Shown: one piece after another, positions 11,751 to 42,520 of the stretch
Position numbering within the stretch: position 1 is the stretch's first letter
How the letters are laid out: each line of letters starts with the position of its first letter
Virus record (IMG/VR): IMGVR_UViG_3300013126_000004
Span: 1 to 46,432 of that record
Direction: 5' to 3' (one strand)
Source: a virus
DNA: 46,432 bases
Program-made: the position numbers and the translations under genes
The notes under the pieces: model-generated
Database searches by the model: none
What the model was told of the DNA's origin: nothing
Seen by the model: only the letters and a program-made list of their open reading frames with translations

Positions 11751-12196
11751 GTGGATAGTATTTCTATGGTTATTTTGTTTCCTCTTAGTAACGCATCCCT
11801 GATTTCAGGGTAAATTCTCTCGTAGGCAATGCGGCTGTCGAGTAAATTATAGATTTCGCCGTTGCGTTTGTAATCCCTTCCTACCAGCAGGCAGCCTTCA
11901 GTATCTTTATTCGAATTCCCGCAATGGATCAGGATATATTCAAAGCCCTGAACATTCATGAGCTGAAGCATACCCTTATGGTATTCCGGTCCGTACCGGA
12001 CTAACTGTTTTTCGTGAAAACCTCCTACGGTCCTGAATTGAATTTCATAAGTGCCTTCAGGTATCCGGGTTTCACCCTTAACCTTTATTTCACGCTTTTC
12101 GTCTTCAAGCGTAAAACACTTAAAAACGCCGTCGATGAACAATTTTCCGATTGTTTCATCTTTAGCATGAATAAATCTTTCAATCCTGAGTTTCAT
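11747..12196 (-). CDS. DUF5675 family protein, candidate cell-wall-active lysis enzyme
   Basis: This 149-residue protein matches the DUF5675 family in layout: an N-terminal 'FCLEDE'-like strand (here 'KCFTLEDEKRE'), 'RIPEGTYEIQFR', then 'ILIHCGNSNKDTEGCLLVG' at about 104-122. The His and Cys arrangement recalls the active site of YkuD-type L,D-transpeptidases. DUF5675 genes commonly sit in lysis cassettes of phages lacking a classical lysozyme. Here it follows the holin by overlap (17 bp) and precedes the secreted beta-helix gene. Family assignment is firm; enzymatic activity is inferred. Confidence 0.85.
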   Translation of the reverse strand: MKLRIERFIHAKDETIGKLFIDGVFKCFTLEDEKREIKVKGETRIPEGTYEIQFRTVGGFHEKQLVRYGPEYHKGMLQLMNVQGFEYILIHCGNSNKDTEGCLLVGRDYKRNGEIYNLLDSRIAYERIYPEIRDALLRGNKITIEILST

Positions 12197-19019: not shown

Positions 19020-19591
19020 GATTTTGAAAATTCTTTGTCTTTAAAAGCCTCGGCAAGGCCTGTTATTTGTTTTAATCGTAATACTTCATCGGGGTCCATC
19101 CCGATTTCTTTTCCAATACGCGCATCCGTCCAATTATGTTTCTTCAAAAATACAACTAATTTCGAAGATAACTCCACCTGATGAGTTCCCCTGGCAAGGT
19201 TATGCCTGACGGTTGATGTTACTCTTTCCTCAAGATTCTTATCAAGCTTTGATACAGGTAAGTATCCTTTCAGACTTGCTCTGACATCTTTGGAATACGC
19301 TGCTACGGTGGTCCGGTGAAATCCATCAACGACAATCCATGATCCATTCTCAACCTCAGAAGATACTACAACCGGCATAGTCATGCCATCCCTACGAATA
19401 GATAGTTTCAGCAACTCCATTTCAGGGGGCGCTACTTTATTGGGATTATAATCATTCCCTTTCACCATATCAACGGGAACCAACTGAACATTAAGGGCAG
19501 GATGGTTCAATCCTATCCAGTCATAAAGCTGTTGAGTAATCTCATTAAACATCTTAACCTTTTCATCGAAAGGTAAATCAGGCAAATTCAT
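19010..19591 (-). CDS. ParB/Srx-like nuclease-domain protein (IbrB-like)
   Basis: This 193-residue protein carries a ParB-like N-domain: 'VQLVPVDMVKGNDYNPNKV' is the entry strand, 'SIRRDGMTMPVVV' the helix and strand, and 'WIVVDGFHRTTVA' the signature GxHR box (about residues 85-97). The C-terminal part has an HTH-like region ('WTDARIGKEIGMDPDEVLRL'). Phages and enterobacteria pair such a protein (IbrB) with a PAPS-reductase-like partner (IbrA), which is the gene directly upstream here (4 bp overlap). This family acts as a CTP- or ATP-dependent switch or nuclease; the substrate here is unknown. Confidence 0.8.
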   Translation of the reverse strand: MNLPDLPFDEKVKMFNEITQQLYDWIGLNHPALNVQLVPVDMVKGNDYNPNKVAPPEMELLKLSIRRDGMTMPVVVSSEVENGSWIVVDGFHRTTVAAYSKDVRASLKGYLPVSKLDKNLEERVTSTVRHNLARGTHQVELSSKLVVFLKKHNWTDARIGKEIGMDPDEVLRLKQITGLAEAFKDKEFSKSWE

Positions 19592-20784
19592 AATAATTCA
19601 CTGTATTTGGTTATTAATTCTACTTGTTTTTCCATTTCTTTCTTTGTCTGGCTGAAGGATAAGCCTTTGCACCAGTAATCATTCTTGAGTAATACTTTGC
19701 AAATCCGTCTCCAGCTTGGAGCTTTCTTTGCAGCTTCCATCTTTAAATCAGAAGTTTCAGGAATGTACTCAAAACCTGCTGCACGCCAATAACTCATGAA
19801 TCGGTCAATCTTCTTTTTGTAGTGTTCTGCTAAATATGGAGGCATTGTGGAAAGCAGGAATTTAGCATAGCTTTCATAAGTATGGCCGGGTGGAAGATTT
19901 ACTTTAAAATTTCCAAGAACGGTTTTATCAGTATCAACATACCGGTTGCCAAAATTTGCTCCCTCTACCCTATTAACTACTTTCTGCCATGTTTCAGGTT
20001 CTATAATTTTAAAGAGATATAATCCTTTCCGCTGATCATCGCCATAAGGCTGGCATAGTCTCATTTGGTGGATTGTTAAACCAGCCATGTACATAAGGTC
20101 ATAAATCCTGTTATAATCATAATTCATCCGGCCATTAGCTATCCAGACATCTTCAGTTCTGAAATCATAGATCGGATAGAAATTATAAAGATGATCATCC
20201 ACCTTTGTACTCCATCGTTTTTCACTAAACATTTGCTTTTCCTGGACGGCAATTGTCCGGAACCGGTTCAGGCTTTCGTCTGACCTGATCCCCACCAGGC
20301 AGGCAGCATCCTGATCACCGGCAAACCACTTTCCGAAAAGAGGCACAAACTCTTCGAACTCCATACCGCGCCGGAAGAATGGGAAATAACTCTCATCGCT
20401 AATCACTCCCGGATGATTAGGTAAATGTCGTGTCCAGGCATCTTTCTTATCTGGGTCCCAGCACAACCAATGAGGTTGGTACTGGCTTACTGCATTGCGA
20501 AGGTGAAGCGGAAGACAAACCCAATACGCATTTACTTCCGGCAGGCTTGCCATTCTGTAAACATAATCAATTGTATGTTTATATTGGGCTTCAAGGTCAA
20601 TTATCAGGACATTTACAGGCAATTTATTGGCTTTTCTGGCAGCATTAATAGCCATATTGAGCATTACACCGCTATCTTTTCCACCAGAAAAAGAAACATA
20701 AACCTTGCTGAAATTGGCATATACATAATCAAATCGCTCAACAGCAGCTTCAAAAACATTCTTATCCCGGTTATATTTCTTCAT
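19588..20784 (-). CDS. Phosphoadenosine phosphosulfate reductase-like protein (IbrA-like)
   Basis: This 398-residue protein has the PP-loop motif SGGKDS at residues 33-38, used by the adenylating PAPS reductase / ATP pyrophosphatase family. 'LVGIRSDESLNRFRTI' follows at about 165-180 and 'DVWIANGRMNYDYNRIYDLM' at about 212-231. The length and the ParB-like partner fit IbrA-type proteins more than metabolic CysH. DndC of the phosphorothioate DNA-modification pathway is also a member of this superfamily, so a DNA or nucleotide sulfur chemistry is possible. The role in phages is not established. Confidence 0.8.
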   Translation of the reverse strand: MKKYNRDKNVFEAAVERFDYVYANFSKVYVSFSGGKDSGVMLNMAINAARKANKLPVNVLIIDLEAQYKHTIDYVYRMASLPEVNAYWVCLPLHLRNAVSQYQPHWLCWDPDKKDAWTRHLPNHPGVISDESYFPFFRRGMEFEEFVPLFGKWFAGDQDAACLVGIRSDESLNRFRTIAVQEKQMFSEKRWSTKVDDHLYNFYPIYDFRTEDVWIANGRMNYDYNRIYDLMYMAGLTIHQMRLCQPYGDDQRKGLYLFKIIEPETWQKVVNRVEGANFGNRYVDTDKTVLGNFKVNLPPGHTYESYAKFLLSTMPPYLAEHYKKKIDRFMSYWRAAGFEYIPETSDLKMEAAKKAPSWRRICKVLLKNDYWCKGLSFSQTKKEMEKQVELITKYSELL

Positions 20785-39813: not shown

Positions 39814-39873
39814 AGTTTAAAATATTAAAGTGTATATATAAAGGAGTTAGCTGCAAGCATAAAAACGAGCCAC

Positions 39874-40164
39874 CTAAAATGGCAGCTCATCATCTTGCAC
39901 TTTGACTTTGGATAAAATTTCCTCAGCTTCCTCAATTTGAGCAAGTGTGTGGTTACGTTTATCGTCCATCACTTTTTTAGCTTTCTCGATTGTATAATCG
40001 GATAGTTTTTCAACTGCAATTCGTTTTTCAACCCAATTTTTTGCAGATTCGTAAACATCGGCTGCCTTTTCACCTTGTTCAACTTCTAATTCAATTTCAA
40101 TTTTGGCATTTTCATAATTGCCTTTTGAAATTAATCGACTGTAAGTTACTTTTAATGCTTTCAT
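39874..40164 (-). CDS. Cassette gene with SSB-like C-terminal tip
   Basis: This 96-residue protein is a conserved phage type ('MKALKVTYSRLISKGNYENA', then a Glu-rich segment and a helical C-half). It ends in DDELPF, close to the SSB tip DDDIPF, which binds replication and repair partners. The gene lies inside the unit bounded by GTTAGCTGCAAGCAT (39846-39860) and ATGCCAGCAGCTAAC (40181-40195). SSB mimicry is inferred from the last six residues only; no OB-fold was recognised. Confidence 0.7.
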   Translation of the reverse strand: MKALKVTYSRLISKGNYENAKIEIELEVEQGEKAADVYESAKNWVEKRIAVEKLSDYTIEKAKKVMDDKRNHTLAQIEEAEEILSKVKVQDDELPF

Positions 40165-40180
40165 TTTGAATTTTAAATAA

Positions 40181-40321
40181 ATGCCAGCAGCTAACCCGTG
40201 GTATAGTTAATTGCCGTGTTAGTAAAAGTTTGAAGCGTTACCACCCGCTTGTAAGTTTATCTCGTGTGATACGGACGTGCCACGCAATCGGCAACTAACC
40301 ATACCACCATTCGTTATCAAA
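40181..40321. repeat. attC-like site 1
   Basis: It starts at the unit end GCAGCTAAC (40187-40195). Its arms are GTGGTATAGTTAATTGCCG (40198-40216) and CGGCAACTAACCATACCAC (40289-40307), which pair at 17 of 19 positions around a 72 nt loop. It ends at GTTATCAAA (40313-40321), the start of the next unit. Two mismatches leave bases out of the stem, as in attC sites. Confidence 0.7.
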
Positions 40322-40341
40322 CATTAAAACGCTTTGATAAC
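40313..40341. repeat. Empty cassette unit A
   Basis: GTTATCAAA, then CATTAAAACG, then C, then TTTGATAAC. The two ends are exact reverse complements, and no gene lies between them. The inner word CATTAAAACG is identical in empty unit B (41285-41313). Confidence 0.75.
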
Positions 40342-40618
40342 ACTGCATAAAAGCAATGCTATCCTTTTCGTAATATCCAGTACCCTCCATAATCAATTCC
40401 TTTTTTATCACATAGTTTACAGAAGCAATTATAGCATAGCGTATTTCCGTTGGGTATTTCGTCTTTAATTTGTTCCCATACTTTATTAGGTGCTTGATAA
40501 TCTCTTACATCTACTCCACATTTTCGACAAAAGGAATTGATTAAAAAGAACCTTCGTAATATCAATTTAATTCTTGCTTTCATATCCGCACTGCTTTTAT
40601 GCTTTTCCGTTAGCACAC
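40333..40618. repeat. attC-like site 2, with a gene in its loop
   Basis: The arms GCATAAAAGCAATGC (40345-40359) and GCACTGCTTTTATGC (40588-40602) pair at 14 of 15 positions. The loop holds the whole 74-residue gene; its stop codon starts on the last base of the left arm and its ATG is 4 bp from the right arm. It is followed by GTTAGCACAC (40609-40618), the start of the next unit. Confidence 0.65.
40359..40583 (-). CDS. Small zinc-ribbon protein inside a hairpin loop
   Basis: This 74-residue basic protein has CRKCGVD and, 28 residues on, CYNCFCKLCDKKG, which is two Cys pairs of a zinc ribbon. The ATG of 'MKARIKLILRRFFLINSFCR' (40581-40583) is a better start than the upstream GTG at 40616, because that GTG lies inside the next unit's GTTAGC border. 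It fits exactly between the arms of attC-like site 2. Such small zinc-ribbon proteins may bind nucleic acid. No family could be named. Confidence 0.6.
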   Translation of the reverse strand: MKARIKLILRRFFLINSFCRKCGVDVRDYQAPNKVWEQIKDEIPNGNTLCYNCFCKLCDKKGIDYGGYWILRKG

Positions 40619-40912
40619 ATTGAGAAACTTCCTCAAGTGGCTCATACCTTCATTTTTTTCAACGATCGACATCCAGGCTGTAAGCCGATCAGCCTGCCCA
40701 TCAACTCCGATCTGGCAAATTTGATGACCATTACATTGTTCTTTGCATCTGCTACAGCAGCCTTCACATTCTGATGAAAAATGACACATCATACAAACTT
40801 CCTTGTTAGTTGGCTCACGGTGATAATCAACGTGTGCTAACATGCGGTCATGCTTAATGCCGTTATCGGCTTCGTTGAAAAGACTGAGCTGTATGTAAGT
40901 TTCCTGTTTCAT
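40610..40912 (-). CDS. Small Cys-rich cassette gene
   Basis: This 100-residue protein has 'CMMCHFSSECEGCCSRCKEQ' then CNGHQIC, a Cys cluster that could bind two zinc ions or an Fe-S cluster. Its TAA stop is part of GTTAGC (40609-40614), the border of the unit. An internal ATG (codon 24, at 40843) lies right at the inner border GCTAAC, so the real start may be there. With the longer start, the N-terminal 23 codons cover attC-like site 3. Confidence 0.55.
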   Translation of the reverse strand: MKQETYIQLSLFNEADNGIKHDRMLAHVDYHREPTNKEVCMMCHFSSECEGCCSRCKEQCNGHQICQIGVDGQADRLTAWMSIVEKNEGMSHLRKFLNVC

Positions 40913-40961
40913 ATGATTATTTGTTTACGGCACTAAGCATACCGCCAGCCCGTTAGCAAAC
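40832..40961. repeat. attC-like site 3
   Basis: It begins with GTGTGCTAAC (40832-40841). The arms GCGGTCATGCTTAATGCCG (40844-40862) and CGGCACTAAGCATACCGC (40928-40945) pair with one extra C in the left arm and one A/C mismatch. It ends in GTTAGCAAAC (40952-40961). The extrahelical C is the type of base that sets the strand used by integron integrases. Confidence 0.7.
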
Positions 40962-40964
40962 ATT

Positions 40965-41183
40965 TTAGAGCCACCGCCCTGTGAGAATGTCTGCATCTCC
41001 CATTTCATAATCTACCTGTTCGGGTTCTCTTGTTTCTCCCCAGGTTTCTTTTTCAGCATCCCACCCGCATTTAGAGCAGGATTGACATTCGTAGTCAATT
41101 TCATCATATGACCGCCCACATTTCGGGCAATCTCTGTATCCACTTTCTTCATCGTCAAAATAATCGTCATCAAAATCTTCCAT
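40965..41183 (-). CDS. Small acidic zinc-ribbon cassette gene
   Basis: This 72-residue acidic protein has CPKCGRS and CQSCSKCGWD, two pairs of Cys that make a rubredoxin- or zinc-ribbon-like knuckle, and an Asp-rich N-terminus. The stop codon directly precedes the border AATGTTTGCTAAC as read on the gene's strand. The ATG follows the other border (41194-41203) by about 10 bp. So the gene exactly fills a cassette unit. Function unknown. Confidence 0.65.
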   Translation of the reverse strand: MEDFDDDYFDDEESGYRDCPKCGRSYDEIDYECQSCSKCGWDAEKETWGETREPEQVDYEMGDADILTGRWL

Positions 41184-41193
41184 AATAAAAAAC

Positions 41194-41293
41194 GTTTGCT
41201 AACAGGTCGGTATAAACAAGCCGCCAAGTCAGCGGGTTAATAAATTGAACAGTCTTGTAAGGCGGCCTGTTCATACCGCCGGCCGTTATAGCA
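41194..41293. repeat. attC-like site 4
   Basis: It starts with GTTTGCTAAC (41194-41203). The arms CGGTATAAACAAGCCGCC (41208-41225) and GGCGGCCTGTTCATACCG (41261-41278) pair at 16 of 18 positions around a 35 nt loop. It ends at GTTATAGCA (41285-41293). Mismatches are five bases apart, as in site 1. Confidence 0.75.
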
Positions 41294-41313
41294 CATTAAA
41301 ACGATGCTATAAC
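41285..41313. repeat. Empty cassette unit B
   Basis: GTTATAGCA, then CATTAAAACG, then A, then TGCTATAAC. The ends are exact reverse complements. The inner ten bases are the same as in empty unit A (40313-40341), though the ends have changed together, which is compensatory covariation. Confidence 0.8.
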
Positions 41314-42008
41314 ACGGGCTATATGCAATGCTTAGTTCCGTGCTTCGTATCGAGTTTTGTGCTAATTTGACCATAATTTTAATTTTTTTTCCCACGCTCT
41401 TCTGCATTCGCAGTTAAGGTTTTTAATTCTTCTAAATACTTTATTGGGTTTCCGTAATATAAGTTTTTCAGCCCTTCGTAAAATCCAACAATTTCTTCGT
41501 GAGTTTTAAAAACTAATGTAGGCAAGTGAAATGTGTATTCCTGTGTGTAGTCAAATTCTATTTTGTTACCATTTCGATAAAAATCTAATAATCTTTTGAG
41601 GATAGTTCTTGATTTATCCGAACAGCATCCACGCCCTTCATATTTTTCTATCAACTTAACAAAGTTGCTTTCAATAAATTGTGAATGTTGCAGTAAAAAT
41701 ACAACATCTCTGTTATTTGATAATTCAATTCTTATCAGCCCTGATATAAATTCTTCAAACGGATAAATCAATCCGAAATAAAATTCTTCAATATCGGTTA
41801 TGTTTTCGTAGCATTTCTTATCAATTAAACTTTGATACAATTCTATCTGCTCTTTAGATATATTGTCAATCATTCCGTTTAAAACTTCTTTTATCTTATC
41901 TTTTTTCATTTTATTTTCCTCCCTAAAAAATTAAAATTATTACTGTTGTGCTTCGTATCATCATCTGTGGTTATATTCGCACTGCATATAGCCCGATAAC
42001 GTTAGCGG
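41305..42008. repeat. attC-like site 5, with a gene in its loop
   Basis: The arms CGGGCTATATGCAATGC (41315-41331) and GCACTGCATATAGCCCG (41979-41995) pair at 16 of 17 positions. The 650 bp loop holds the 176-residue gene. It is followed by ATAAC-GTTAGCGG (41996-42008). A 12-bp direct repeat (GTGCTTCGTATC at 41340-41351 and 41948-41959) sits inside the loop on both sides of the gene. Confidence 0.7.
41379..41909 (-). CDS. Hypothetical cassette gene in hairpin loop 5
   Basis: This 176-residue acidic, Ile/Leu-rich protein is mostly helical ('KEQIELYQSLIDKKCYENIT', 'IEFDYTQEYTFHLPTLVF'). It has a leader with a good ribosome-binding site (GGGAGG just upstream of the ATG), which is unusual in this phage. 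It is also lower in G+C than its neighbours. The base composition and the flanking direct repeats suggest recent gain. Function unknown. Confidence 0.7.
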   Translation of the reverse strand: MKKDKIKEVLNGMIDNISKEQIELYQSLIDKKCYENITDIEEFYFGLIYPFEEFISGLIRIELSNNRDVVFLLQHSQFIESNFVKLIEKYEGRGCCSDKSRTILKRLLDFYRNGNKIEFDYTQEYTFHLPTLVFKTHEEIVGFYEGLKNLYYGNPIKYLEELKTLTANAEERGKKN

Positions 42009-42436
42009 TCAGCTTGAGAAAGCCACTGCAAACAGTCAACTATTGCCAAAAATGTTGCTTCAATAAGCGTATCAGCTTGAAATAATTGAAATCCGTCAAG
42101 CCTAACCATTATTTGTCCAGTTTCTTCGTTTAGCATTCCAAAAGTTCTTGGAGTTGCATATTTCACGTATGTAATTCCGTCACCTATTTCTTTTCTGCAA
42201 AGTTTTTCTAATACAGGCATAAGCCAATCCCAGCGAGTGTGAAATTCTGCATTCGAGATTTGTTCACTTATCCAACCTGTATTTTCTTTGTCATCAATAT
42301 TATAAATAGGATAAAGGTTTGGGAACTTATAAGTAGTTCCATCTTCGTATTTCTCCCAACCCATAAAGTCAGCAATTAAAGCCGAACCGCTAACAATATG
42401 TTTATGCAATTGGGGTTTTTGTGGTAATTCGTTCAT
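42002..42436 (-). CDS. Hypothetical protein in the array
   Basis: This 144-residue protein is conserved in style with phage-encoded helper genes: 'IADFMGWEKYEDGTTYKFPN' near the N-terminus, then 'EFHTRWDWLMPVLEKLC'. The layout (Trp and Pro rich, soluble) is common in environmental phages and cassettes. The stop codon TAA lies in GTTAGC (42001-42006), as in the 100-residue cassette gene. No domain name applies. Confidence 0.65.
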   Translation of the reverse strand: MNELPQKPQLHKHIVSGSALIADFMGWEKYEDGTTYKFPNLYPIYNIDDKENTGWISEQISNAEFHTRWDWLMPVLEKLCRKEIGDGITYVKYATPRTFGMLNEETGQIMVRLDGFQLFQADTLIEATFLAIVDCLQWLSQADR

Positions 42437-42520
42437 AATCTGTATTTATTAAGTTTATACTATTTCGATAGTGCAGTGGTTTCTACTCCCCAACTGCACA
42501 AACATTTAACGTTATCCCGG
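42437..42520. repeat. Right-end hairpin of the array
   Basis: GTGCAGT (42471-42477) and ACTGCAC (42493-42499) make a 7-bp stem with a 15 nt loop, followed by GTTATC (42511-42516). The stop codon of the Gp37/Gp68 gene (42512-42514) is inside that GTTATC box. This may be the edge where the array joined the older operon. Confidence 0.55.

Follow-up and report, generated by a model that had tools for sequence, protein, structure and literature searches.

Integrons are regarded as platforms with which bacteria capture genes, and cases of integrons in phages have so far been taken as occasional passengers. Here, we describe an array of six gene cassettes in a viral DNA of 46,432 nucleotides (nt; IMG/VR record IMGVR_UViG_3300013126_000004), the whole of which is termed the window. 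The array, at positions 39846-42519, very probably belongs to an integron-like recombination system of Bacteroidota phages, which would make it part of a widespread phage-borne relative of the integron with its own integrase and attI site.

Integrons have been recorded in Bacteroidota (PMC8618304), and an additional domain is treated as defining the integron integrase, IntI (PMC9668308). For phages, Qi et al. 2023 (PMC9892861) reported 17 clusters of attC sites lacking an integrase (CALINs), and phage attCs, one of them of Polaribacter phage origin, were recombined by IntI1. The array in the window is likewise an attC cluster in a phage without an integrase, but in that account the sites are bacterial integron sites taken up by phages, and a phage-specific integrase and attI were not recognised. 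The statement in the preliminary description of the window that such an array is rarely reported in phages thus holds for the present type only, and not for phage CALINs in general. The variable metagenomic islands of cryoconite phages, as described in passages of PMC7468147, are also similar by their description, with near-identical phages and exchanged genes, five genes annotated as integron gene cassette and frequent methyltransferases (MTases); these passages name no cassette integrase or site.

Like integrons (IntI, attI and attC, both class 1 and chromosomal), the phage system has tandem cassettes with self-complementary ends, hairpin attC sites, a G|TT crossover and apparent insertion at an attI next to the integrase, the array lying 5' of the integrase gene. 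Unlike them, it has a phage-encoded integrase without the IntI-specific domain, an invariant G.T pair in the attC stem, R' boxes that are not GTTRRRY, and loops of up to 1.2 kb with genes inside, the genes being antisense to the attC top strand. The phage system works like an integron, and is non-canonical in its integrase, R' consensus and gene orientation.

The cassette array and its attC-like hairpins

We defined a cassette on the plus strand as extending from one G|TT to the next, comprising a body (GTTAnnnn..nnnnTAAC) followed by an attC. When the whole window was scanned for GTTAnnnn paired with its exact reverse complement at most 600 nt away, exactly six pairs were returned, all in tandem in the array, whereas dinucleotide shuffles of the region gave a mean of 0.19 pairs and a maximum of 3. 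Every border quoted in the preliminary description was found in the sequence, and we additionally identified a sixth pair (42001/42394) absent from its list. Six hairpins with 16-nt arms connect the units in an arm search, for which the background in the remaining phage sequence is approximately 0.1 hairpins per 3.4 kb. A covariance model, R1, trained on 53 sites of other phages and on no window sequence, recovered five of the six hairpins, every one on the minus strand (E-values 1.9e-13 to 0.003); the hairpin that it missed, and that the arm search recovers, is attC 5, whose 649-nt loop contains gene 5.

Outside the array, R1 gave no match reaching E 1 in the 46-kb window and 0 matches in 905 kb of other phage loci, and no such sites were found in the relatives of the DUF5131 gene that served as control (L001-L080). 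An Rfam search returned a single microRNA match, judged to be chance. The cassette array in the window is real: the proposed series of attC-like sites joined by hairpins inside a phage was borne out by border scan, arm search and R1, the scores of R1 lying far above background. There are six units with complementary borders; two of them had been called empty, a reading that we rejected, since each consists of a 29-nt body with its gene (gene 2 or gene 5) inside the attached hairpin loop.

The attC inverted repeats (R''-L''..L'-R') show complementarity and covariation in the window and in the 53-site set. In the 53-site alignment, one stem pair is G.T in 52 sites, and the other stem pairs show double changes (17/18) with a covariation of 0.85, compared with 0.18 when shuffled, figures that are inflated because the sites were picked for arm pairing with symmetric scoring. 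Neither the fixed G.T wobble nor the polarity of wobbles was imposed by site selection. We also examined 118 sites of the 29-nt pattern, 68 of which have a strong second arm, 45 of these being distinct. The distinct sites have loops of 70-1235 nt and contain 647 Watson-Crick pairs, 66 A/C mismatches (equivalent to G.T on the bottom strand), one C/A mismatch and two top-strand G.T pairs; an A/C mismatch falls 15 nt past TAAC in 43/45. The natural reading of the fixed G.T pair would be a mark of strand choice favouring the bottom (minus) strand, which would fold as a single strand. All 27 loop open reading frames (ORFs) of at least 40 amino acids (aa) lie on the bottom strand, as do all six window genes; the cassette genes of canonical integrons are on the top strand, under the control of Pc. 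Among the window hairpins, attC 3 and attC 6 each have a single bulge, but the 53-site consensus has no conserved one. The R' boxes of the window (GTTATCA, GTTAGCA, GTTAGCA, GTTATAG, GTTAGCG and GTTATCC) fit GTTRRRY in 0/6 cases.

Integrases, attI-like sites and cassette exchange in related phages

No tyrosine recombinase was found in the window record, as the preliminary description had stated. We identified one on 10 of the 41 array-bearing contigs tested. In ten of ten loci that contain both, the integrase gene runs opposite to the array motif and is found on its 5' (attI) side, with 12-60 nt between integrase gene and first cassette start in the closest cases. The array-linked recombinases (265-280 aa) score 136-164 bits against TIGR02249 (cut-off 265), where their alignment breaks into two stretches and leaves out approximately positions 180-239, a gap that corresponds to the IntI-specific domain; they also fall below the curated XerA cut-off (220). 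In our tree, the phage integrases and those of Freya and Ingeline are separate from IntI (100/99) and XerC/D (100/100), with Bacteroidota recombinases as nearest neighbours of the phage clade; support for this clade is moderate (91/85 without Leef). Modelled with AlphaFold (pLDDT 79.5), the integrase matched VchIntIA (2a3v) best and XerA next, with low TM-scores.

Directly 5' of the integrase genes in L084, L085, L131, L112, L121, L139, L210 and the prophage of chromosome G149, we identified the sequence TATATATAATA|GTTA. The first cassette after the same attI differs between L112 and L208, as it does between L121 and L139. The left end of the array in the window, GTGTATATATAAAGGA|GTTAGC, resembles this sequence, so that the window has an attI-like sequence and no integrase; cassette junctions at attI were seen in relatives (Freya). 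The prophage-like region of chromosome G149 (L268) contains an integrase, an attI-like site and an MTase-like cassette gene, followed, close to attC matches, by three copies of a 426-aa ORF resembling, by eye, a group II intron reverse transcriptase.

Natural isolates of Polaribacter phages suggest that the system works. Freya_1, 2, 5, 6, 8 and 10 have a common core of 43,113 bp with 0-4 differences, and the region from the integrase to a core gene varies among the Freya isolates by entire cassettes. Read relative to Freya_10, the attI of Freya_1, 2, 5 and 9 (..TATAGGGGT|GTT) is joined to a downstream G|TT with an overlap of exactly GTT, and in Freya_8 two attC sites are joined with the overlap GTTG; overall, the Freya overlaps at attI and attC are GTT, GTTG or GTTGGTA. 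A single 472-bp cassette at attI separates Freya_6 from Freya_5, and a 781-bp cassette at GTTA separates Danklef_3 from Danklef_5. The differences are undirected and do not distinguish gain from loss. A G|TT crossover is thus seen in Freya_1, 2, 5, 6, 8 and 9 and in Danklef_3/5, and the phage cassette system is apparently active, with 43-kb near-identical isolates differing by whole cassettes cut at G|TT. The annotation of the Danklef phages L229, L231 and L232 contains just a C-terminal piece of integrase. For the authors who described the Freya phages, the Freya-type integrase pointed to a potential temperate lifestyle, and their main text does not contain the word "integron" (PMC8776804); our comparison suggests that cassette integrases account for at least some of the "integrases" from which lysogeny has been deduced in such phages. 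Freya and Danklef would be culturable models of the system.

We additionally identified exchange between phages, as the preliminary description had proposed, and the order of the genes is not fixed among related phages. The body of cassette 6 recurs in L290 with 88.9% identity, bounded by GTTAGCGG and CCGCTAA, whereas identity outside it is 33-35%; the L290 counterpart of gene 6 continues in frame from another N-terminal leader, which starts in a different attC loop. L099 has the arms and loop ends of attC 5 of the window, with a glycosyltransferase gene in place of gene 5. Near-identical segments across loci end at G|TT in 37% of left and 48% of right ends, compared with approximately 8% at random. 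In the comparison of L290 and the window, attCs seem reassorted against bodies.

Distribution, proposed mechanism and rival explanations

At least 120 IMG/VR stretches contain the 29-nt body pattern, with mostly complementary arms. The bacterial and archaeal genomes searched (257 Gb) gave five matches to it. Three are genuine, all on short contigs of Bacteroidota metagenome-assembled genomes; L201 and L202, with non-complementary arms, were dismissed as chance. R1 scores strongly (E down to 6e-11) beside related recombinases in Bacteroidota chromosomes (L291, L294 and L299), and with this we abandoned the idea of a phage-only system. These chromosomal arrays share with the phage form the attC model and a related integrase without the IntI insert, but differ from it in having genes on the attC top strand (18/19 ORFs) and the array 3' of the integrase, so the phage form would be a rearranged offshoot of a system found more widely in Bacteroidota. 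An N-terminal extension is frequent in the chromosomal XerA-type integrases.

In the Polaribacter phage P12002L, the arm search found sites of the same shape with MTase genes nearby; R1 gave no match there at E 0.1, and none in the class 1 integron region of phage P1. The huge phage LR756500 contains a stretch 82% identical to attC 1 of the window. The region concerned (L216; LR756500.1, a 462-kb uncultured phage, 394359-410483) holds this closest relative found of attC 1, together with at least 12 attC-like sites in 16 kb, in both orientations. Because a loop-borne gene lengthens the attC beyond what current finders are designed to detect, arrays of this kind may be under-counted. A text search of the literature for the core ACATTAAAACG returned nothing relevant.

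The array, the covariation, the integrase linkage, the GTT junctions of the isolates and the exchange of cassettes can be read directly in the sequences compared, and the mechanism that we propose builds on them. Each cassette would terminate in an attC hairpin formed by folding of the minus strand, the invariant G.T pair setting the choice of strand. The tyrosine recombinase encoded beside the attI-like site in relatives would be the catalyst, cutting at G|TT, and cassettes would be excised as circles or inserted at attI or attC. The genes, antisense to the attC top strand in body or loop, would consequently be read by phage transcription towards attI. The array would serve for the swapping of small accessory genes. 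Pfam matches were obtained for seven of the ten large loop genes analysed from other phages, namely C5 and N6/N4 MTases, two Mom proteins, a TET-associated glycosyltransferase and an RNA ligase; such cargo in relatives, largely for DNA modification, points to counter-defence. As the array in the window has no integrase, its cassettes would be either stable or moved by that of a co-infecting phage or prophage, and the window phage is perhaps a CALIN-like member with an attI-like site, mobilised in trans. IntegronFinder defines a CALIN by two or more attC sites and the lack of an integrase; with R1 and the arm search, the window has five to six sites and no integrase.

Several observations weigh against this interpretation, besides the inflation of the covariation figures. 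No integrase is seen on 31 of the 41 array-bearing contigs, many of which are fragments, and the window itself has none. The Danklef integrase looks broken, although Danklef_3 and Danklef_5 differ by one cassette. Segment boundaries are moderately enriched at R'' (20/114 left ends, compared with approximately 8-9% at random), and the gene-6 exchange (L290:652-1171, window 42002-42396) ends at R'' at one end; a simple crossover at R' only does not account for these boundaries.

The phage array could alternatively be a classical CALIN, of bacterial integron cassettes moved by the canonical IntI of a host. We regard this as improbable, since none of the R' boxes fits GTTRRRY, the genes are reversed and some lie in loops, and the array-linked integrases of relatives are under the TIGR02249 cut-off and lack the IntI insert; accordingly, the placement of the array as a piece of a classical integron in the preliminary description was not retained. 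The absence of R1 matches from the phage P1 integron region and the near absence of the 29-nt body motif from bacterial genomes likewise disagree with it, whereas six attC-like sites without an integrase, the same attC type in chromosomal Bacteroidota arrays, and the use by IntI1 of phage attCs, that of a Polaribacter phage included (Qi et al. 2023, PMC9892861), would agree. Another view, in which the hairpins are operon RNA elements (terminators, RNA stability or translation control) with no role in recombination, would be compatible with wobbles that form coding-strand G.U pairs and with the start of several genes in loops, and the hairpins may indeed have a secondary RNA role; the gain or loss of whole units at GTT in near-identical isolates, the exchange of cassettes between contigs and the linkage of integrase and attI make it very unlikely as the whole explanation. 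There is a similarly slight chance that the hairpins are bystanders of gene exchange by homologous or illegitimate recombination or by homing nucleases: phages recombine freely and HNH genes lie near the Freya array, but the overlaps are just 3-7 nt, always start from GTT and fall at attI or attC, and segment boundaries are enriched at GTT as given above.

Beyond the integron-like interpretation, we lean with less assurance towards a wider one, in which Bacteroidota phages would own a distinct class of integron, with an integrase free of the IntI domain, its own attI, antisense cassettes often in attC loops, trade in counter-defence genes during infection, and integrase-less members mobilised in trans by co-infecting phages. 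If true, this would be a route by which phages quickly swap MTases and other counter-defence genes.

Anatomy of the cassettes

Table 1. Features of the cassette array, in window coordinates.
Feature	Position	Strand	Description
attI-like site, array left end	39828..39848	+	AAGTGTATATATAAAGGA|GTT region; resembles TATATATAATA|GTTA of relatives
Cassette 1 body	39846..40195	+	GTTAGCTGC..GCAGCTAAC; border scan
Gene 1	39874..40164	-	96 aa, no assigned function; in cassette 1 body
attC 1	40187..40321	- (predicted recombining strand)	loop 78 nt; R1 53.5 bits, E 6.7e-9
Cassette 2 body	40313..40341	+	29 nt, GTTATCAAACATTAAAACGCTTTGATAAC; pattern in at least 120 IMG/VR stretches
attC 2	40333..40617	-	228-nt loop enclosing gene 2; arm search; R1 E 0.003
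Gene 2	40359..40616	-	85-aa frame from GTG, 74 aa from internal ATG; attC 2 loop
Cassette 3 body	40609..40841	+	GTTAGCACAC..GTGTGCTAAC; border scan
Gene 3	40610..40912	-	100-aa frame; stop in border box, first ATG in attC 3 loop
attC 3	40833..40960	-	loop 65 nt; R1 52.6 bits, E 1e-8
Cassette 4 body	40952..41203	+	GTTAGCAAAC..GTTTGCTAAC; border scan
Gene 4	40965..41183	-	72 aa, weak zinc-ribbon match; in cassette 4 body
attC 4	41195..41293	-	loop 39 nt; R1 48.8 bits, E 6e-8
Cassette 5 body	41285..41313	+	29 nt, GTTATAGCACATTAAAACGATGCTATAAC; also in L099 and L205
attC 5	41305..42009	-	649-nt loop enclosing gene 5; arm score 15.25 of 16
Gene 5	41379..41909	-	176 aa, phrog_32020, no assigned function; attC 5 loop
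Cassette 6 body	42001..42394	+	GTTAGCGG..CCGCTAAC; border scan; counterpart in L290
Gene 6	42002..42436	-	144 aa; stop in border box, start codon in attC 6 loop
attC 6, array right end	42386..42519	-	loop 76 nt; R1 75.2 bits, E 1.9e-13
Border pairs	39846/40195, 40313/40341, 40609/40841, 40952/41203, 41285/41313, 42001/42394	+	whole-window scan
Hairpins, AAC/GTT	40193/40313, 40339/40609, 40839/40952, 41201/41285, 41311/42001, 42392/42511		arm search

The window genes have no assignment apart from weak matches, and a search for related loci with gene 5 as query returned no relative. Gene 3 may begin at an internal start rather than at its first ATG, which lies in the attC 3 loop. The R' box of attC 6 includes the stop codon of the DUF5131 gene. 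In the nearest phage relatives by primase, attC-like sites were found 3' of the primase or were not found nearby, indicating that the position of the array in the window is not conserved; the two nearest, L277 and L280, have an attC site at 12060-12156, 3' of the primase. A short direct repeat, GTGCTTCGTATC, lies near both ends of the attC 5 loop (41339-41350 and 41948-41959), and occurs in L099 too. Elsewhere in the window phage, at 19588-20784, we identified a PAPS reductase-like gene (phrog_2302).

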